This document shows positions 9,497 to 27,015 of a DNA stretch of 27,015 nucleotides, piece by piece. The stretch is taken from the IMG/VR virus record IMGVR_UViG_3300015371_000143, positions 1 to 27,015 of that record; one strand, 5' to 3'. The translations under genes and the position numbers were made by a program. Origin of the DNA: a virus. The notes under the pieces are model-generated. The model did no database searches. It saw nothing but the letters and a program-made list of their open reading frames with translations, and was not told the DNA's origin. Numbering within the stretch: position 1 is the stretch's first letter; every line of letters starts with the position of its first letter.

Positions 9497-10944
9497 CGCG
9501 ACCTCGCGAATAGCGATAGCTGCTGCGTCCGCGCGAAGATCATCTGCGCGTAGTCCGGATTCAGCTCGACGCCGATCGCGTGCCGACCGTGCGCACGCGC
9601 GACGAGCGCGGTCGTTCCCGAACCGAGGAACGGATCGAGCCCGATCCCCGGCCGATAGTCGTCGTGGCCGCAGTCAGTCCAGCCGACCGTTCGTCGCTCG
9701 GCGCCCGGGTCGGGCACGGTCGCGGCCTTGCCACGGCGCAGCGGGTCCTTATCCGGCGTCCACGATCCGCGCTGGCGGTCTGACTCCACGATCCGATAGC
9801 GCGGCTTGCCGCACCTGCGGCAGACGTCTGCGGGGCACGACGCGAGCACGCAACGCGTAACCAGCGCTTCGGGAAACGTCGCAAAATGCGCCTCGGCGTA
9901 TGGCTGCGTCGGGATCGACCAGACCGAGCGGAGGTTGCGACCGGACGAGTTCCAGTCGATGCGGCCCGCCCCCTGGCCGCCGCCGTTGACGTCGATCCCC
10001 GGGCGCACCGTCCGACGTTTGCCGTTCTCTGACCATGCCTCGCGGTTCGGCTCCCGAACCGCCTCCTGGTCGAACCAGTAGCGCGCCGAGCGCGTCAGCA
10101 TGAACACGTACTCATGCGCGATCGTCGGGCGGTCCTTCGCCGACTCGGGCATCGGATTCGGTTTCGACCAGATGACGTCGGCGCGCAGATACCAGCCGTC
10201 CGCTTGCAGCGCGAGCGCGACGCGCCAGGGAATGCCGACCTGATCTTTTGCCTTGAGGCCAGGGGGCGCGATCGGTTTCTTGTCGGCGTAGGTCAGCCCG
10301 CGATCGCGAAGCGTCGGCGATACGCGGAACGCGCCGTCCTGCGCGCCCTGTTCGCGTCGTCGCTGAGTCGTCGCAGAGTCGTAGGACGCGCCGCTCGGCC
10401 CGCTGCCCGCATAGCTATCGCCGAGGTTCAGCCAGCAGGTCCCATGCGGTGCGAGCACGCGCCGCACCTGCCAGAAAACATCGACCAGCGTCCGCACGTA
10501 CTCGTCGGGCGTCGGCTCAAGGCCGATCTGGTCATCGACACGGCGTGCACCGCAGAGGCCGCAGACGTCACGGAAAAACGGCATCTGCTGGTTCCCCTGC
10601 GTATCGGTCGAACCGACGAGCGTCGAACTCGCGCGCACCTGCTCGGGCGTATGCCGAACGGCGCGATGGTCGCAGTCGTCGTCGCCGCCCTCCCAGGCGC
10701 CCGTTCCGTAGTCGCGGAGGTTCCAGTACGGCGGCGAGGTCACGACGCAGTCAACGGACGCATCCGGCAGTTCAGCGAGCACGGCGCGCACGTCGCCGAC
10801 GTAGAGACGGAAATCGACGTCCTCAAGGAACGGACGCAGGGGCGCACGGGTACGCAGCGGCCTGCGTTCGTCTCTCGACGTCACCGGGAGGTTGCTTCCG
10901 GCAGTGCCCGTTACGGCGAACTGGCCCACGCCCCCGCGAGTCAT
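9493..10944 (-). CDS. DNA methyltransferase (beta class, N4-C or N6-A)
   Basis: 483 residues from the ATG at 10944 (ATGA overlap); a longer upstream frame is shadow. Motif IV TSPPYWNLRDYG is near residue 70-80 and motif I DPFLGSGTTALVA is close to the C-terminus (about 445), the order of beta-class amino-methyltransferases. The amino acids after motif IV and the catalytic TSPPYW favour N4-cytosine or N6-adenine modification. Two zinc-knuckle-like pairs (CGLCGARR, CRRCGKPRY) lie between. Its target is unknown; it may protect phage DNA from host restriction or alter gene expression. The following nuclease gene overlaps it. Confidence 0.9.
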   Translation of the reverse strand: MTRGGVGQFAVTGTAGSNLPVTSRDERRPLRTRAPLRPFLEDVDFRLYVGDVRAVLAELPDASVDCVVTSPPYWNLRDYGTGAWEGGDDDCDHRAVRHTPEQVRASSTLVGSTDTQGNQQMPFFRDVCGLCGARRVDDQIGLEPTPDEYVRTLVDVFWQVRRVLAPHGTCWLNLGDSYAGSGPSGASYDSATTQRRREQGAQDGAFRVSPTLRDRGLTYADKKPIAPPGLKAKDQVGIPWRVALALQADGWYLRADVIWSKPNPMPESAKDRPTIAHEYVFMLTRSARYWFDQEAVREPNREAWSENGKRRTVRPGIDVNGGGQGAGRIDWNSSGRNLRSVWSIPTQPYAEAHFATFPEALVTRCVLASCPADVCRRCGKPRYRIVESDRQRGSWTPDKDPLRRGKAATVPDPGAERRTVGWTDCGHDDYRPGIGLDPFLGSGTTALVARAHGRHAIGVELNPDYAQMIFARTQQLSLFARSR

Positions 10945-11879
10945 TCGCGTATCGCCGCGTCGTGGTCGGTGGCGAGGATTTTCAGCGCTCGCCGCGCTTT
11001 GTCGTAGGCGCCCCAGGTCGAGAGGTTGTTCGGATCGCGGTTCGGTTTCGATCCGCCCGGGTCGAGCGCGATCAGTCGATCGAACATCGCGTCGATGCCG
11101 TGCTGGGACCCGATCAGCGTTCCGGCGCTCGGCGCTCCACCGTTCGACGGCGGCGGCGTCGGCTCGGGCGGCGTCGGCATCTGCTGCGGTCGAACGATCG
11201 TCGGCAGCATCGTCTCTAGCCACTCCTGGCCCGCTGCGTCCATCGACTGTTCGACGGTGTACGGCGAACCACCGATCCCGAGCTGGAGCGCTTCGAACGC
11301 ATACGTCGTCGGTTCCGGACGCGTCGGATACGACTGCAGCAGTGGCCGAATCTGCTCGATCGGCCAGCCCCACGATTGCGCGCCGAGGACGCAGTTCGTC
11401 AGCGTCGCCGACGGATGCTCGCCCGTGAACGCTTGCGGCATCGTCACCGCGCCCGCCTGAATCCATGCCGTCTGATCGCTGCCGAGGACCGACTGCGTCG
11501 TAATCGCAAGCGGCCCGCTGAACGCGCCCGCCGCGCGGAACGCTTCCAGGTAGCGCCCCGGGTAGTGGTATTTCGGATCGCCCGAGTTCCCGTGCGCGTC
11601 GTAGGGCGCTTCCATGTTCGCGATGAACGCCGCGTAGCCCTGCGCGCGTTGCGCGTGGTAGCGCGCCTCGGCCTCGACGTCGATCCCTTCGCACCACGCC
11701 CACGCGTAGACCTCGAATCCCTGCTGGCGCGCAGCGTTTAGCCAGTCGTCAGACGGTGGGTGGATCGGTAGACGGTCGCCCCATGCGACCTGAACGGCCA
11801 GCCGCTTGATCCATTTCGGAACGAGCGTCAGCGGAACGTCGGGCGGCGTCGCGACGAACGCGAGCGAATCCCAGGTCAT
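10941..11879 (-). CDS. TIM-barrel glycoside-hydrolase-like protein
   Basis: 312 residues, ATG overlapping the upstream stop by ATGA. KWIKRLAVQVAWGDRLPIHP, ARQQGFEVYAWAWCEGID, GYAAFIANMEAPYDAHGNSG and FSGPLAITTQSVLG read like successive beta strands of an (alpha/beta)8 barrel with acidic residues at strand ends (CEG, NMEAPY). A Pro-rich linker (PTPPEPTPPPSNGG) precedes a small helical C-terminus. It follows a secreted transglycosylase gene, so a wall- or capsule-sugar hydrolase is likely. It has no signal peptide. Family not identified. Confidence 0.6.
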   Translation of the reverse strand: MTWDSLAFVATPPDVPLTLVPKWIKRLAVQVAWGDRLPIHPPSDDWLNAARQQGFEVYAWAWCEGIDVEAEARYHAQRAQGYAAFIANMEAPYDAHGNSGDPKYHYPGRYLEAFRAAGAFSGPLAITTQSVLGSDQTAWIQAGAVTMPQAFTGEHPSATLTNCVLGAQSWGWPIEQIRPLLQSYPTRPEPTTYAFEALQLGIGGSPYTVEQSMDAAGQEWLETMLPTIVRPQQMPTPPEPTPPPSNGGAPSAGTLIGSQHGIDAMFDRLIALDPGGSKPNRDPNNLSTWGAYDKARRALKILATDHDAAIRE

Positions 11880-12379
11880 AGCAACCCGCACCTCCTCGCG
11901 GTGGTCGGCCACGGGTGAAAACCGCGCGTGAACCAGGCGCGGATCGCGACCGCGATTTGAACGGACGGGGGCCACTCGTCGGCGGTCCCGAAAACGCGCC
12001 AGTAGTCGCCGCCGTAGGTCTGCATAAATGCGCCGTTCATCTGCAGACCGCCCCAGTAGGGCGCGCCGCGATCCGTCCACGATCCCTCGCCGGTGTGAAT
12101 GCAAAGGAACGCCTGCTCTAGCCAGTGGCCCGGGTCGTAAGCGAAGCGACGCGCGAGCATCCGTCGTTGTCGCCGGATCACCAGCGCTCGCCGACGGGCC
12201 GTCCGGCGCCATTCCGCTAGCTGCGTTCGCAGCGTCTCGACGGACGCCTCGTCGGTAGGATCGTTCCGCGTGATCGACGTCGAGACGGGCTGCGGCGGAT
12301 CGGTCCCGCGGGCGCCACTGACCGCGATCGCGACCGCCGTCAGATACGCGACCAGCGCTGCGGCGCCCGCGATCTTCAC
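11876..12379 (-). CDS. Secreted Rpf-like/lysozyme-like transglycosylase
   Basis: 167 residues, GTG start with AAAGGG upstream. Residues 1-26 (KIAGAAALVAYLTAVAIAVS) form a signal peptide or membrane anchor. Residues about 45-80 are an Arg-rich coiled coil. The catalytic domain follows: LCIHTGEGSWTDRGAPYWGG, LQMNGAFMQTYGGDYW, and QIAVAIRAWFTRGFHPWP; Glu in HTGEGSW is the probable acid. This is the small lysozyme fold of actinobacterial resuscitation-promoting factors and tail transglycosylases. First gene of the early operon, unlike normal phage lysins, which sit in the late cassette. Confidence 0.8.
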   Translation of the reverse strand: MKIAGAAALVAYLTAVAIAVSGARGTDPPQPVSTSITRNDPTDEASVETLRTQLAEWRRTARRRALVIRRQRRMLARRFAYDPGHWLEQAFLCIHTGEGSWTDRGAPYWGGLQMNGAFMQTYGGDYWRVFGTADEWPPSVQIAVAIRAWFTRGFHPWPTTARRCGLL

Positions 12380-12498
12380 GCAAACCCTTTGCTAGAGCGG
12401 AATCCCCTACTTACTTTTTGGGGACGTTGCCTCCGCAAGCGAACATAAAAACAGCTATGCTCCATGCGTTGAATCCAACCCCTGAACAGGAGGAACGC
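12380..12498. promoter_or_regulatory. Divergent region between early operon and integration operon
   Basis: 119 bp separating the GTG at 12379 (minus) from the ATG at 12499 (plus). It is AT-richer than the surroundings and should carry both promoters. On plus, TATGCT (about 12456) could be a -10 box; on minus, TAAGTA within AAAAAGTAAGTAGGGG (12404-12419) is a weak candidate. CCCC/GGGG flank TACTTACTTTTT here, a partial match to the 11-mer found in the early operon. AGGAGG precedes 12499. No confident operator. Confidence 0.5.
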
Positions 12499-12792
12499 AT
12501 GGCCCCTGAGGACGTCATCGAACTGGCGAAACGGATCGCAGACGTCGCCGCAACGGACGGCGACGAGACGCGGATTCTCAACGTGACGATCGGCGAACTC
12601 GCCGACGGATCGCGTCGTCCGTATGCGATCGCTGAGACGTTCGACCCCGTCTCGCAACTGGAGCAGACCTACCGCGTCTGCGCGCCCGCGCCGGACGTCG
12701 CGCCGTTGTGGGCGATCCGCGACTGGTCGATCGAGGTTCGCATCGCGGACACTCGCGGCGAACACGGCTGGCTGCGGCTGGAGGAGGTCTAA
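12499..12792 (+). CDS. Small protein of the integration operon
   Basis: 97 residues from the ATG at 12499, chosen because AGGAGG lies six bases upstream; a frame from 12418 has no such site. An N-terminal helix (PEDVIELAKRIADVAATDG) is followed by strand-like segments (ETRILNVTIGEL, RPYAIAETF, WSIEVRIADT). No recognised family. Three bases from the next gene and in the same unit as the integrase, so a role in integration or its control is possible. Confidence 0.65.
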   Translation: MAPEDVIELAKRIADVAATDGDETRILNVTIGELADGSRRPYAIAETFDPVSQLEQTYRVCAPAPDVAPLWAIRDWSIEVRIADTRGEHGWLRLEEV

Positions 12793-12795
12793 ACG

Positions 12796-13005
12796 ATGAG
12801 CCGCACGAAAGGCCGCGGCCCATTCAAGGACGACAGACGCGGTTCGGTCGTCCTGCTCCGCGACTGGACGGGCGAGTACGTCGCCCGCGTCATCGAGCAG
12901 GACGCGCACGATTTCACGATCGAACTGGACGACGGTCGCAGGATCGACCTCAGTAAGGCGAGGTTCAAAGGCGCGCTCGTTCGCGTACTGGACGGGAACG
13001 CGTAG
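12796..13005 (+). CDS. Small beta-rich protein before the integrase
   Basis: 69 residues, ATG with GGAGG upstream. GSVVLLRDWTGEYVARVIEQ and TIELDDGRRIDLSKARFKGA suggest an SH3-like or KOW-like five-strand barrel of the nucleic-acid-binding kind. It ends directly at the integrase start. Because phage serine integrases need a small directionality protein, often encoded in the same region and very variable in sequence, this gene is a candidate for it. That is inference only. Confidence 0.65.
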   Translation: MSRTKGRGPFKDDRRGSVVLLRDWTGEYVARVIEQDAHDFTIELDDGRRIDLSKARFKGALVRVLDGNA

Positions 13006-14355
13006 ATGACCGCCGCCAAAACTCCCCTCCGCGCGATCGGCCTCGCGCGTCAGTCCCGCCGGGACGATGACTCCCTCTCGATCCCGCACCAGGTCGAGCG
13101 GATCACGACCGCCGCTGCGGATATGGAACTGCTGGACGTCCTGGAGGAACCCGGGACGTCGGGCGGCGCTGACCTCTCGCGTCGTCGTGGTCTGCGTCGC
13201 GCCGTCGAAATGATCGAGGACGGCGACGCCGACGTGATCGTGGCCGCGTACTTCGATCGTTTCTTTCGCGATCTGACCGTCCAGCAGGAGGTCCTTAAGC
13301 GGATCGACGCTGCTGGCGGTCGCGTGCTCGCTGTCGATATCGGCGAGATCAGTAACGGCACCGCGTCGCAGTGGATTTCGGCTACGACGATGGGCATGGT
13401 CGCGGAGTATCACCGTCGGATCACTCGCGAGAAAACGATCGATGCGAGACGCGCTGCGATCGCTCGCGGCGTCCCGACGTTCCCGAACGTGACGCCTGCC
13501 TATCAGCGCCGCGAGGACGGGACGCTGGAACCGCATCCGGTGAACGCGCCACTGGTCGCAGACGCGGTCGCGATGCGCGGCGACGGCGCCTCGTTGAGCG
13601 AGGTTCAGACGTTCCTCGCCGACAACGGGATCGACCTCAAATACTCGGCGATCCGGCGGATGCTGCGCTCGCGGATTCTGCTCGGCGAACTCCATAGCGG
13701 CCCGTTCGTGAACCTCACCGCGCACGAACCGATCGTGGACGAGGCGACGTGGCAGGCCTGCCAGGACGCGAGCGTGTCGCGTGGACGTCGCGCAAAGGTC
13801 GATCGTCTGCTCGCGCGGATGCGGCTGCTGCGCTGCGGCGGCTGCGACGCCGCGATGAGCGTCCGCCATCAGCAGAATGGCGATGGCAAGCGGCACCCCT
13901 ACTACATCTGCGGGAGCACCGACCATCGTCGCGGTCGTGCGCTGATCGCCGCAGAGCCGGTCGAGGACGCGATCCGCGATGCGGTCATCCGCGCGTCGGC
14001 CGGGATCGTCGGTCGTGCCGGGATGGACGACGAGGCCGAGGCCGCACGTCGCGCCGCGGAGCGCGACGAGGACGCACTGCAACGGGCCTTCGTCGCGTTC
14101 GAAGGGATGGAGGACGAGCAGGGCGCCCGCGATCGGCTGCTCGATCTCCGCGCAAAGCGGGACGCGTCTCGCGACCGCTACCACCGTCTACGTGCCGCCA
14201 TGAGCGCGACGCGGACGGTTACGACGGCGGCGGACTGGGACCGCCTCTCGCTCGACGCTCGGCGCGACCTGATCGAAACCTGGATCGCGTCCGCCGTCGT
14301 CGCTCCCGGGCGGGGTCCCGATCGTCTGACGATCGTCCCGCGCGAGATCGTCTAG
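13006..14355 (+). CDS. int: Large serine recombinase (phage integrase)
   Basis: 449 residues, ATG touching the previous stop. The N-terminal resolvase domain has the nucleophile Ser17 in GLARQSRRDDD, then SIPHQVERI, GTSGGADLSRR, VIVAAYFDRFFRD and GRVLAVDIGEISNGTASQW, followed by MGMVAEYHRRITREKT, helix E. The recombinase domain (about 150-260) includes SRILLGELHSGPFV. A zinc ribbon uses C277, C280, C302 and probably H307 (CGGC ... CGSTDH). The C-terminal coiled coil covers about 340-400. It joins attP to attB without host IHF. attP is not identified; flanking gaps 12380-12498 and 14356-14486 are the places to look. Confidence 0.93.
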   Translation: MTAAKTPLRAIGLARQSRRDDDSLSIPHQVERITTAAADMELLDVLEEPGTSGGADLSRRRGLRRAVEMIEDGDADVIVAAYFDRFFRDLTVQQEVLKRIDAAGGRVLAVDIGEISNGTASQWISATTMGMVAEYHRRITREKTIDARRAAIARGVPTFPNVTPAYQRREDGTLEPHPVNAPLVADAVAMRGDGASLSEVQTFLADNGIDLKYSAIRRMLRSRILLGELHSGPFVNLTAHEPIVDEATWQACQDASVSRGRRAKVDRLLARMRLLRCGGCDAAMSVRHQQNGDGKRHPYYICGSTDHRRGRALIAAEPVEDAIRDAVIRASAGIVGRAGMDDEAEAARRAAERDEDALQRAFVAFEGMEDEQGARDRLLDLRAKRDASRDRYHRLRAAMSATRTVTTAADWDRLSLDARRDLIETWIASAVVAPGRGPDRLTIVPREIV

Positions 14356-14422
14356 CAGCAGCCGCCGCGCCTCGCGATCGAGGATCGCCTGCGTCCGTGC
14401 CTCCAGCGTCGAACGGGGCACG

Positions 14423-14453
14423 GGCGCATGGCGGCGCCGTGGCGCCGTGCGCC
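14423..14453. terminator. Hairpin between integrase and repressor
   Basis: 11-bp arms (GGCGCATGGCG and CGCCGTGCGCC, one G-U pair) with a 9-base loop, in the 131-bp convergent gap 14356-14486. Without a T-run it would be an I-shaped terminator serving both the integrase (plus) and repressor (minus) units. The gap could also contain attP; nothing else is recognisable in it. Confidence 0.6.
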
Positions 14454-14486
14454 GGGTCGGACGTGGTAGCCGCTGGATTCTGATTC

Positions 14487-14762
14487 TCATGCGGCCCGCC
14501 GTTTCCGCTCCGCGTAGCGGATCGCGGCTGCGCGGAATCCCAGCAGCTCGTTCGCGTCGAGTTCGAACGCTTGCGCGAAGTGGACGACGTACCGTTCCCG
14601 CGGGATCATTACGCCGCGCTCCCAGCGATCGATCGTGGCGTGCGTCGTGTTCAGCAGGTCGGCGACGTCCTGCTGACTCAAGCCCCGCGCTAGTCGCGTT
14701 CGCTTGAACGTTGCGGCAAGGCGATTCGTGCGGGGCACGGCCTCCCTTAGCAGTGCGGCCAT
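14487..14762 (-). CDS. XRE-family repressor-like protein
   Basis: 91 residues. FKRTRLARGLSQQDVADLLN, then THATIDRWERGVMIPRERYV is a strong HTH at about residues 20-75; ELDANELLGF is the usual end of the XRE domain. The ATG at 14762 is preceded by GGGGAG at good spacing; a GTG nine codons in has AGGGAGG too close. Located between the lysis cassette and the integrase, with a 16-bp palindrome in its promoter, it is the best candidate for the immunity repressor, though it lacks a C-terminal cleavage or dimer domain. Confidence 0.85.
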   Translation of the reverse strand: MAALLREAVPRTNRLAATFKRTRLARGLSQQDVADLLNTTHATIDRWERGVMIPRERYVVHFAQAFELDANELLGFRAAAIRYAERKRRAA

Positions 14763-14807
14763 GTGGCGTCTCTCCCCGGTGCGATGGTGACTGGTTCGGC
14801 GTGCAGT

Positions 14808-14837
14808 GTTCTAGCGCACGGGGGCAATACGTTGCAA
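14808..14837 (-). promoter_or_regulatory. Possible repressor promoter
   Basis: On minus: TTGCAA (14837-14832), an 18-base spacer and TAGAAC (14813-14808), about 45 bases before the repressor ATG. The -35 lies inside the palindrome at 14833-14848, which would allow autoregulation. The -10 is weak. Confidence 0.4.
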
Positions 14838-14848
14838 ATGCATTTGCA
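14833..14848. promoter_or_regulatory. 16-bp palindromic operator candidate TGCAAATGCATTTGCA
   Basis: A perfect dyad, strikingly AT-rich for this genome, 71-86 bases upstream of the repressor start. Palindromes of this size are typical binding sites of dimeric XRE repressors. Confidence 0.65.
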
Positions 14849-14863
14849 GCTCGAACGGGGAGT

Positions 14864-14894
14864 CGGAAAACCGCTGCGCTGGTCTGGTTTTCCG
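14864..14894. terminator. Hairpin CGGAAAACC / GGTTTTCCG
   Basis: 9-bp perfect arms and a 13-base loop downstream (on minus) of the late operon's last gene, so it could end late transcription before the repressor. It could equally be part of the operator cluster. Confidence 0.5.
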
Positions 14895-14897
14895 TTC

Positions 14898-14911
14898 ACG
14901 TCGGCCGACGT
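14898..14911. other. 14-bp palindrome ACGTCGGCCGACGT
   Basis: Perfect dyad in the same 221-bp gap (14763-14983) as the operator candidate and the 9-bp-arm hairpin. The rest of the gap shows no gene. Confidence 0.45.
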
Positions 14912-14983
14912 TTGTTTGACGTCGAGTTTGTCCCCCTGCGCGGGAATCGGCAAACCCGGGCGACGAGCGCCGCGAGGACTACG

Positions 14984-15148
14984 TCATTTGTCGCGGTTCG
15001 TGCGGCCGTTCGTCCGTTCGTAGAGCCTGATCCACTCCTCGATCCGGATTACCTTCTCGCGCGTCCGCCCGAGCAGAATCGCGAGCGCGACGATCGCTGC
15101 CGTCGTGGTCGAGTGGATAGCCACCAGCGCCTCGGTTTCGCGGCTCAT
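14984..15148 (-). CDS. Small one-TM protein (holin-like)
   Basis: 54 residues, ATGA overlap with the endolysin. Polar N-terminus, one membrane segment (about residues 13-27, STTTAAIVALAILLG), then a charged helix (REKVIRIEEWIRLYERTNGR). This size and its place straight after a peptidoglycan hydrolase fit a single-TM holin of the late lysis cassette. Last gene of the late operon. Function inferred from position and topology. Confidence 0.65.
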   Translation of the reverse strand: MSRETEALVAIHSTTTAAIVALAILLGRTREKVIRIEEWIRLYERTNGRTNRDK

Positions 15149-16065
15149 GGCTCCGCGACGCGAACGAACACCGTTGCCTGCTCCGAACGCGAGCGCGAGC
15201 GGCGCATCACCTGCCCGCCGTTCGAATCGTTCGACGTGGACGTGTTCCCCTCGATCGCGGAGAACTGCTGCGCGGCCGTCCACTTTTCGAAGATCCCGAC
15301 GTGGTCGTAGATCGTGTCCCATGCCCAGTCGTAACAGACGAGGTCGCCGGGGATCGGGTCGTCGGTCGTCTTGAGGCCGTATCGACCGGCGCGAGCGTCG
15401 GCGACGATGTAGGGCACATACGAGTACCGCGATCCCTTGACGAACGCGGGCGAGTCGCGGTCGTCGGCGGTTTCGAACGCCCACGTTGCGAAGATCGCGC
15501 ACCACGGCTGCCCGTTGAATGCGCCGTACCACTCTGCATATTTGTTCAGGTTCGATCCGGCCGGGGATTCCTTGTAGCCGAGTTGCGAGATCGCGTGATC
15601 GAGCGCGGCGACGCGGAGCGCACCGCCAGCGTCCGGCGCTGGTTCCGACCCCTTGAACATCGCCCACGCCTTGTTCAGCAGTGACACGGCGTAGGCGTCC
15701 ATCGCTGGTTCGCCCTGGTGCGGCAGGCCTTGCGGAATGCGGATCGATCGCAACGTCTTGAACGTTTTCTCGCCGATCCAGCCCGTAGCGTCTAGGTGCT
15801 GCTGACGCTGGACGCCCGCGATTCCGGTATCGACAACGTCCGGCCCGTTACCGTGCGCGAATCCGTTCGAATACGCCTGATCGAACTCCTGCCACGGCCA
15901 GCGTCCCGCGCGTGAGACGGTTCGTTTGTACGCCTCGACGTCCGGGCCGTCCATACTCGGTCGCTTACCGCAGTCCGACGCATCGGGTGGATAGAGCGGA
16001 CGCGGAAAGCCGTCCACCTTGACCATCGGCCCGCCCGGGTATCCGTGGTCGTAGTCCCACATCAT
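15145..16065 (-). CDS. Endolysin with C-terminal CHAP amidase/peptidase domain
   Basis: 306 residues from the ATG at 16065 (ATGA overlap). The first half (SMDGPDVEAYKRTVSRAGRW, FDQAYSNGFAHG, GIAGVQRQQHLDATGWIGEK, FKTLRSIRI) reads like a peptidoglycan-binding domain with the 'GV..fQ....L..tG.ig..T...L' pattern. The second half is a CHAP/NlpC-like cysteine peptidase: WCAIFATWAFE with the nucleophile Cys, GDLVCYDW, and YDHVGIFEKWTAA with the catalytic His, then SAIEGNTS. It would cleave host peptidoglycan at lysis after the holin opens the membrane, or work from the tail tip at entry. Confidence 0.88.
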   Translation of the reverse strand: MMWDYDHGYPGGPMVKVDGFPRPLYPPDASDCGKRPSMDGPDVEAYKRTVSRAGRWPWQEFDQAYSNGFAHGNGPDVVDTGIAGVQRQQHLDATGWIGEKTFKTLRSIRIPQGLPHQGEPAMDAYAVSLLNKAWAMFKGSEPAPDAGGALRVAALDHAISQLGYKESPAGSNLNKYAEWYGAFNGQPWCAIFATWAFETADDRDSPAFVKGSRYSYVPYIVADARAGRYGLKTTDDPIPGDLVCYDWAWDTIYDHVGIFEKWTAAQQFSAIEGNTSTSNDSNGGQVMRRSRSRSEQATVFVRVAEP

Positions 16066-16835
16066 GCGATCCCGTACAGGGAGAGCCGCGATCCGGCGAC
16101 GAACTGACCAGCCGCGGGAAAGAACGTGATCCGGTTCAGCGCCGCAAGCGATTTCCAGTGACCCTCGACAAACTGAATGATCGGCGCCGTGCCGCCGTGT
16201 CCGGATCGACCACGGAACCCCTTGTAAAACGCGGCAACGGAGTAGTACGGAATCGAGAGATCGAACGTCGAGAAAACGTTCGCCGGGTCGCCCGTATAGG
16301 TCGTCTGCGCGACGTTGACGTAGTCCGCTTCGCCGCTCGTTGACGTCGGTGCGCCCGTGCCGACGAGGACCTCCCATCGGTACTGAATCGCGCCGGAGTC
16401 GTTGTTAAAGCGGCAACGCACGACGCCCGCGGCCGGGTCGTTGCAGCGCAGCATTCCCGTTACGCGCAGCTCGCGGAACGTCGCCGGGATCGCCTGAAAA
16501 TCCATGTTCGCGGCGGCGGCGCCAAGGATCTTTTCCTCGATCAGCGAAATGCCGACGGAAACCACCTGCGGCGCCCATTTGACCTTGTTCGGCTGCGCCG
16601 GATCTGCGGTGAGGACGTCGCCGAGGGTCGCGCTCGCGGCGAGTCGAGCGACGGCGTCGGGACCGCTGCCGACGAGTAGATCGCCGGGTGCGTCGATGAC
16701 GCTAACCATCACCGGATCGGGCAAACCGTCGATGACCTGCTCCGTCTTGAGCGCGAGTTCGTGCATATCGGTCGGAACGTCGGCCGGGTCGGTCGGCTCC
16801 GGATACGGCAATTGATAGGTCGGCGTTGTGCCCAT
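16062..16835 (-). CDS. Tail fibre / receptor-binding protein
   Basis: 257 residues; the ATG at 16835 has AAGGAGG just upstream. It begins GTTPTYQLPYPEPTDPADVP, DMHELALKTEQVI, the usual start of actinophage tail fibres and minor tail proteins ('..yglpyp...d...d...LA..vE..i'). The rest is beta-rich with no catalytic motif (YRWEVLVGTGAPTSTSG, SIPYYSVAAFYKGF). It follows a collagen-like protein and precedes the endolysin, as expected for the host-recognition end of the tail operon. Confidence 0.75.
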   Translation of the reverse strand: MGTTPTYQLPYPEPTDPADVPTDMHELALKTEQVIDGLPDPVMVSVIDAPGDLLVGSGPDAVARLAASATLGDVLTADPAQPNKVKWAPQVVSVGISLIEEKILGAAAANMDFQAIPATFRELRVTGMLRCNDPAAGVVRCRFNNDSGAIQYRWEVLVGTGAPTSTSGEADYVNVAQTTYTGDPANVFSTFDLSIPYYSVAAFYKGFRGRSGHGGTAPIIQFVEGHWKSLAALNRITFFPAAGQFVAGSRLSLYGIA

Positions 16836-26133: not shown

Positions 26134-27015
26134 GCGTTCATCGCCTCCTCGAAAACTGCGTCTGACAGTCGCGGGTCAGCGTCCGTCGCGCCGTGCGTTC
26201 CAGCCTCCTCGTAATACGCCGCCGCTTGATCCGCTTCGCCCTCGCGGAGCGGCGGCAGGTCGAAAACGAGCGCTCGCGCTTCGTCCACGGTCAGCAGTTC
26301 GGCGCCCACCGCCTGAATGACGAGCGTCGTCAGCGTGGCCATATCGGGACGCAGGACCTGCCACGGATCGAACTCGACCCACGATCCGCGCGGTAGCCAA
26401 CGCGACAACGCCTCGGCGATCTTCGCTGCGCACGGCATTAGCTCCGTGCGCCACCAGAGGCCGAACAACTGCTCGGGATTCTGGTACGTCAGTCCGCCGC
26501 TAACCGACGTGTTAAGCAGGATCGCCGGGACGCCGAACGCTGCTGCGATCTGCCGCACGTCCCAGTCGCGCGAGTCGAGCAGCATCATGTCCTTCGGTGA
26601 AACCGAGATCGCTTCCAGCAGCTCCAGGTCCGGCGGCAGGATCGCGGGCGCGCCGAAACGCTTCGCGGCGGCTGCGACCCAGTCGGCTTGAATCTGCTGC
26701 GCTTGCGCCTGGTCGAGTCGTCGCTGCGATTTGAGCGCGACGCGGCTGGCGCCCGTCGAGTAGTAGACGTCCGCGGCGTAGTTCTCGGCTGCTGACGCTG
26801 AGGCGACGTTCGACGCGTAGGCCTCCAGCGCGGACGTTCCGCGTAGCGCTCCGTTCGGGTTGCGCATGATCTGCAAGACGTCGCGCGGGTCAAGCGGAAC
26901 GTCGTTCGACCAGTAGGCCCGCGTCCCGGCGACCTCGCGAACCTTGATCGTCGTCGGATCGAGGACCGTCCACGTTCGCGGATAGCCCGACTCGTATTTC
27001 GTCGTCACCCAGAGG
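26130..27015 (-). CDS. Portal protein, C-terminal part
   Basis: The frame is open up to the window end and continues at 123 downwards on the circle to the true ATG at 479 (413 residues in all); the ATG at 27008 is internal. SNDVPLDPRDVLQIMRNPNG, ALRGTSALEAYASNVASASA, YFYSTG-like DVYYSTGASRVALKS, MLLDSRDWDVRQIAAAFGVP, and ALSRWLPRGSWVEFDPWQVL are standard HK97 portal motifs (core wing/stem/clip). It overlaps the prohead protease start (ATGA). Confidence 0.9.
   Translation of the reverse strand, partial: LWVTTKYESGYPRTWTVLDPTTIKVREVAGTRAYWSNDVPLDPRDVLQIMRNPNGALRGTSALEAYASNVASASAAENYAADVYYSTGASRVALKSQRRLDQAQAQQIQADWVAAAAKRFGAPAILPPDLELLEAISVSPKDMMLLDSRDWDVRQIAAAFGVPAILLNTSVSGGLTYQNPEQLFGLWWRTELMPCAAKIAEALSRWLPRGSWVEFDPWQVLRPDMATLTTLVIQAVGAELLTVDEARALVFDLPPLREGEADQAAAYYEEAGTHGATDADPRLSDAVFEEAMNA
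26893..27015. repeat. Terminal direct repeat, copy 2 (circle join)
   Basis: Identical to 1-123; see the first copy. It lies entirely inside the portal gene. Confidence 0.95.

Follow-up and report, generated by a model that had tools for sequence, protein, structure and literature searches.

Known phage regulators and integrase partners

The phage repressor BPs gp33 acts on short palindromes (12-bp palindromic half-site), one of which lies near its own gene, and it binds several operators across its own genome and controls the early promoter (PMC4557955). Together with other autoregulated XRE/HTH_3 regulators, such as those of the 434 type, it resembles the locus described here in combining a small DNA-binding regulator with a palindrome near the regulator's own promoter. 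In contrast to the BPs system, our window, by which we mean the whole 27,015-nt stretch of viral DNA that was analyzed, holds a single copy of the putative operator and no divergent early promoter. A comparison can also be drawn with the divergent CI/Cro switch, represented by two phages (G007 and G017) that carry XRE-family proteins and the same structural genes. The window, however, lacks a divergent partner and repeated operators, and its integrase is of a different type.

A further point of comparison is provided by serine integrases. Recombination directionality factors, phiC31 gp3 among them, are described as partners of these enzymes (PMC5814800, PMC5311408, PMC11530663). They are small phage proteins, and in the window a conserved small ORF and its HTH partner take up a position at which a gene of this kind could lie. 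The small ORF nevertheless has no significant match in Pfam, PHROGs, NCBIfam or phage records, and similarity of its sequence to a described family was not found there.

A two-gene cassette converges on a large serine integrase

Since the window ends in an exact 123-bp direct terminal repeat (1-123 and 26893-27015) and the portal gene reads through the junction of this repeat, the virus record very probably represents a whole circular genome, with a length of 26,892 bp. The phage DNA has a GC content of 66-67%. Structural and lysis genes occupy the minus strand, running from the portal gene through an endolysin with a CHAP domain (15145-16377), which is kept in relatives, to a putative 54-aa holin-like ORF (14984-15148). 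The latter is taken for the last gene of the lysis cassette from its sequence and its position after the endolysin, and has no Pfam match. Beyond it lie the intergenic region of interest (14763-14983) and, on the same strand, the gene of a 91-aa XRE-family HTH protein (14762-14487; Pfam HTH_31 1e-11, HTH_3 7e-10; PHROG transcriptional regulators). This gene is preceded by a GGGGAG ribosome-binding site rated good (14772-14777) and has a coding-like GC3 of 0.79. The structure of its product, predicted from the single sequence, reached a pLDDT of 66, which is too low for a fold search. The small ORF follows on the minus strand (14188-14490), its start overlapping the XRE stop as ATGA. Facing both genes from the plus strand is the large serine integrase (13006-14355; Pfam Resolvase, Recombinase and Zn_ribbon_recom).

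We favor a reading, to which we give a probability of about 0.42, in which the gap would supply the promoter and a possible autoregulatory operator of an integrase-linked cassette formed by the XRE gene and the small ORF, and would not be a master lysogeny switch. According to this proposal, the region 14763-14983 would carry the promoter of a two-gene cassette, XRE gene first and small ORF second, which lies in the slot separating the lysis genes from the serine integrase and runs toward the 3' end of the latter. An XRE dimer would most likely bind the AT-rich 16-bp palindrome in the gap as a single operator, limiting its own synthesis, while the remaining two are in all likelihood incidental. 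The cassette would probably tune integrase or excision activity and not the lysogeny of the whole phage, by affecting either how the integrase is expressed or which way recombination runs, and late transcription reading through it would be antisense to the integrase. It is the position of the cassette that suggests such a link with integrase control.

Two other sets of small ORFs were observed on the plus strand. Immediately 5' of the integrase, positions 12457-13005 hold two ORFs of unknown family that probably share the integrase operon; relatives have other small ORFs in their place. Upstream of the terminase gene and divergent from the portal gene are ORFs 566-1108 and 1105-1554, with winged-helix-like matches (MarR_2 below the cut-off and a weak Mrr_N); these are possible regulators of the phage.

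Three dyads and their chance expectation

An earlier note on this DNA, made from the letters alone, had called the gap palindrome-dense and placed three dyads within 80 bp. All three are present at exactly the positions it gave: the perfect AT-rich 16-bp palindrome TGCAAATGCATTTGCA (14833-14848; 8-bp arms, loop of 0), the inverted repeat CGGAAAACC-N13-GGTTTTCCG (14864-14894; 9-bp arms), to which we assign no role, and the perfect 14-bp palindrome ACGTCGGCCGACGT (14898-14911). While the dyads are real, the claim of density fared less well. Against dinucleotide shuffles, the whole window contains 7 perfect palindromes of at least 14 bp where 9.0 are expected, 4 of at least 16 bp where about 2.3 are expected, and no excess of hairpins with 9-bp arms. 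Two palindromes of at least 14 bp fall inside 80 bp in 22% of shuffled genomes; the same pair joined by a 9-bp-arm hairpin within 80 bp was seen in 2/100, in a test made post hoc. Shuffling of the gap only gave a 16-bp palindrome in 11/2000 cases and two palindromes of at least 14 bp in 0/2000, but this procedure makes palindromes look rarer, and the 221-bp gap was picked after being seen. A 16-bp palindrome with at least 10 A/T appeared in only 1.7% of shuffled genomes. The A/T-richness of TGCAAATGCATTTGCA is the sole property that is still unusual genome-wide, and here the earlier description of the first dyad as very AT-rich for its genome is borne out.

The strongest rival explanation, which we consider a genuine if doubtful possibility, is that the palindromes are chance features of the gap, with the XRE protein acting elsewhere or on another sequence and the region being simply a promoter. 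It draws on the low total of palindromes, on the ease with which a close pair arises in shuffles, and on the lack of both a second half-site and conservation. It accounts poorly for the A/T-richness of the first palindrome and its position at the 5' end of the XRE gene, and for the failure of gap-only shuffles to produce two 14-bp palindromes. Other searches of the gap gave no signal: its whole RNA fold (14763-14983) was no better than that of shuffles (z -0.47), Rfam returned no match, and the inverted repeat at 14864-14894 was found in none of the other fetched loci.

Returning to the integrase-linked cassette, TGCAAATGCATTTGCA lies 71 bp upstream of the XRE gene and is a plausible candidate for a single operator of the 91-aa protein, an AT-rich 16-bp dyad being possibly of the right size and kind for autoregulation by an XRE dimer. 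The same dyad had been said to overlap a plausible -35 element. A weak promoter-like pair on the minus strand, TTGCAA (14832-14837) and TAGAAC (14808-14813) separated by 18 nt (14808-14837 overall), keeps this as a weak possibility with 8/12 consensus positions. It falls below the threshold of our promoter scan (9 of 12), which found no promoter in the gap, and the promoter position proposed here is to be read as a prediction.

A conserved small ORF is locked to the integrase 3' end

The operator region itself appears ordinary and local in scope. The main interest of the locus lies in what came to light when its dyads were checked, namely a conserved small ORF tied to the 3' end in a family of large serine integrases. 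Directionality and control factors of such enzymes are difficult to recognize from sequence, and there is demand for them in phage biology as well as for use as genetic tools.

In the window, the small ORF overlaps the integrase 3' end and encodes a motif of approximately EARxxxILDREARRLLxxxLARD at about 14332-14403. In 10/10 loci (the window and L105-L113), the minus strand beyond the integrase stop holds a short ORF whose motif resembles AxxxLxxxARRLLxxxL; this set of loci contains near-duplicates (L107 with L108, L105 being close) and amounts to about eight independent sequence types. Leave-one-out HMMs, from which the sequence in question and any near-identical partner had been withheld, were applied to nine loci, and the place of the small ORF ranked first of 106-526 stop-to-stop segments in 9/9. 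The window's own ORF was the best of 526 segments (21.9 bits, E 2.8e-6; runner-up 5.6 bits), and the weakest case was L106 (11.1 bits versus 3.2). The motif is mostly outside the integrase reading frame and is therefore not an echo of integrase conservation. Applied to serine-integrase loci of more remote relationship and to four named phages, the small-ORF model gave no significant match, and a second integrase-profile scan yielded no new loci.

The gene that precedes the small ORF varies among loci and does not always encode a DNA-binding protein. As in the window, where the overlap is ATGA, the small ORF can be read as overlapping its upstream neighbor by ATGA or GTGA in five further loci (L105, L107, L108, L110 and L113). 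Besides the XRE gene of the window, the partners comprise an XRE-like HTH protein without overlap in L109 (HTH_31, E 8.7e-5), an HTH_17 excisionase-type protein in L113 (E 1.6e-10) and a possible zinc finger in L110 (weak match), those of the remaining loci being small acidic proteins.

These patterns invite a broader reading, which we regard as unlikely, in which the region would drive a serine-integrase companion cassette where a conserved micro-protein (ARRLLxxxLxxD) is translationally coupled to an interchangeable partner; it would represent a new family of integrase directionality or regulatory factors. The micro-protein in question is convergent with the integrase, overlaps its 3' end and is accompanied by a strong hairpin at the junction, and its partner is sometimes DNA-binding, as the XRE protein is here.

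Operator copies and the integrase-lysis slot of related phages

The earlier note had seen in the region a lysogeny switch. The corresponding explanation, in which the XRE protein is the immunity repressor and one or more dyads control both its own gene and lytic genes, is improbable. An XRE-family HTH repressor gene of the kind expected for a CI/Cro-type switch is indeed present (Pfam HTH_31 and HTH_3), the phage genome is small and carries an integrase, and immunity repressors are often variable between relatives. The distribution of the operator nevertheless argues against it. Besides the dyad itself, the half-site TGCAAATG, further copies of which the earlier note had in mind, occurs nowhere in the very probably complete circular phage genome. 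TGCAAATGCATTTGCA is single-copy, and the next-best 16-mer matches it at only 11/16 positions. Because TGCAAATG has no second copy, the dyad by itself cannot serve as a lysogeny switch for the genome as a whole. Through TGCAAATGCATTTGCA, a lysogeny repressor could control only its own gene, and a single-copy site points to a local role only. Moreover, there is no convincing divergent cro gene or early promoter, the neighbors being lysis genes on the same strand. An operator common to the XRE gap and the DNA 5' of the integrase was also considered and rejected, the best match being 12/16 and driven by GC.

The TGCAAATGCATTTGCA 16-mer recurs exactly in 72 IMG/VR contigs. Every one of these has a lower GC content, and most of the sites lie within long reading frames, in one of which the site encodes Ala-Asn-Ala-Phe-Ala. 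None of the 72 adjoins a significant relative of the XRE protein or the integrase. Given their lower GC, their location mostly in reading frames and the lack of an XRE relative alongside, we rejected these matches as conservation of the dyad.

Four of the capsid-protein relatives also share the integrase (G008, G010, G011 and G015; 42-47% integrase identity) and have a recognizable endolysin and an arrangement like that of the window. In their integrase-lysis slot there is no XRE relative and, in the stretches read, neither TGCAAATG nor even TGCAAAT. Relatives with the same integrase thus have neither the XRE gene nor the dyad of the window, which speaks further against a lysogeny switch. As for conservation of the dyad, a lack of which the earlier note would have counted against its own reading, the four integrase relatives do lack it, along with the XRE gene; this outcome extends only to relatives without the window's XRE, the searches having given none that carries it. 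The orientation of late genes toward the repressor, which the earlier note had rightly observed and considered unusual, is common to all four: late genes run toward the integrase in 4/4, so that this is the normal architecture of the group and not an oddity.

By sequence, the window's XRE has no close relatives in viral or genome contigs, matching at only about 31% in G007 and G017 and at 38% over 40 residues in G003. A capsid-profile scan of genome contigs for the host genome gave no match. G007 and G017, which are structural relatives, carry XRE-type genes in divergent arrangement; in G017, a 142-aa repressor-like gene and a 69-aa cro-like gene precede an HTH ORF, beyond which lies a probable tyrosine integrase. 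This divergent layout is the classical switch of the group, and the window is without it. Since relatives with the same structural genes have, in L094 (1327-2299) and at both ends of L080, a divergent pair of repressor- and cro-like genes ahead of a probable tyrosine integrase, the lysogeny module has been swapped whole within this phage group.

Terminators, attachment sites and the junction hairpin

The hairpin and the GC-rich palindrome had also been suspected of ending late transcription before the XRE gene, an explanation that we find very improbable. Like intrinsic terminators, both dyads are inverted repeats in an intergenic gap, here between the holin-like ORF and the XRE gene, and 14898-14911 gives a weak terminator-like match, although on the plus strand only and at chance level. 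In the direction of the late genes, on the minus strand, neither 14864-14894 nor 14898-14911 is followed by a T-run, and their stability is ordinary: the 14864-14894 hairpin has an MFE of -12.1 kcal/mol, which is average for the genome, 41% of whose 40-nt windows fold better. The number of terminators in the genome equals that in shuffles.

The attP of a serine integrase is an imperfect dyad of roughly 50 bp that often lies close to int, and an odd dyad centre or a palindromic central dinucleotide is atypical of such sites. That part of 14763-14983 is the attP is barely credible, with the odd centre of the 14864-14894 dyad, the palindromic central dinucleotide of the 16-mer, and a far stronger dyad beside the integrase stop that makes a better candidate.

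This stronger dyad, a very stable hairpin at 14413-14456 between the convergent integrase and XRE cassette, lies directly 3' of the integrase stop codon and within the small ORF, and few 44-nt windows of the genome match its stability (fraction 0.0001). A hairpin is present near the corresponding place in 8/10 integrase loci (not in L111 and L113), at about the top 0.3% of its own locus, and the equivalent in L105 has 14-bp perfect arms. It is possibly a two-way terminator for the convergent genes, and it may also be the attP.

Finally, a further observation concerns a minus-strand protein encoded at 10941-12383. Its C-terminal ~50 residues are found again 5' of the endolysin in L003 and G008 (59-63% identity), and represent a shared domain moved between tail and lysis genes.
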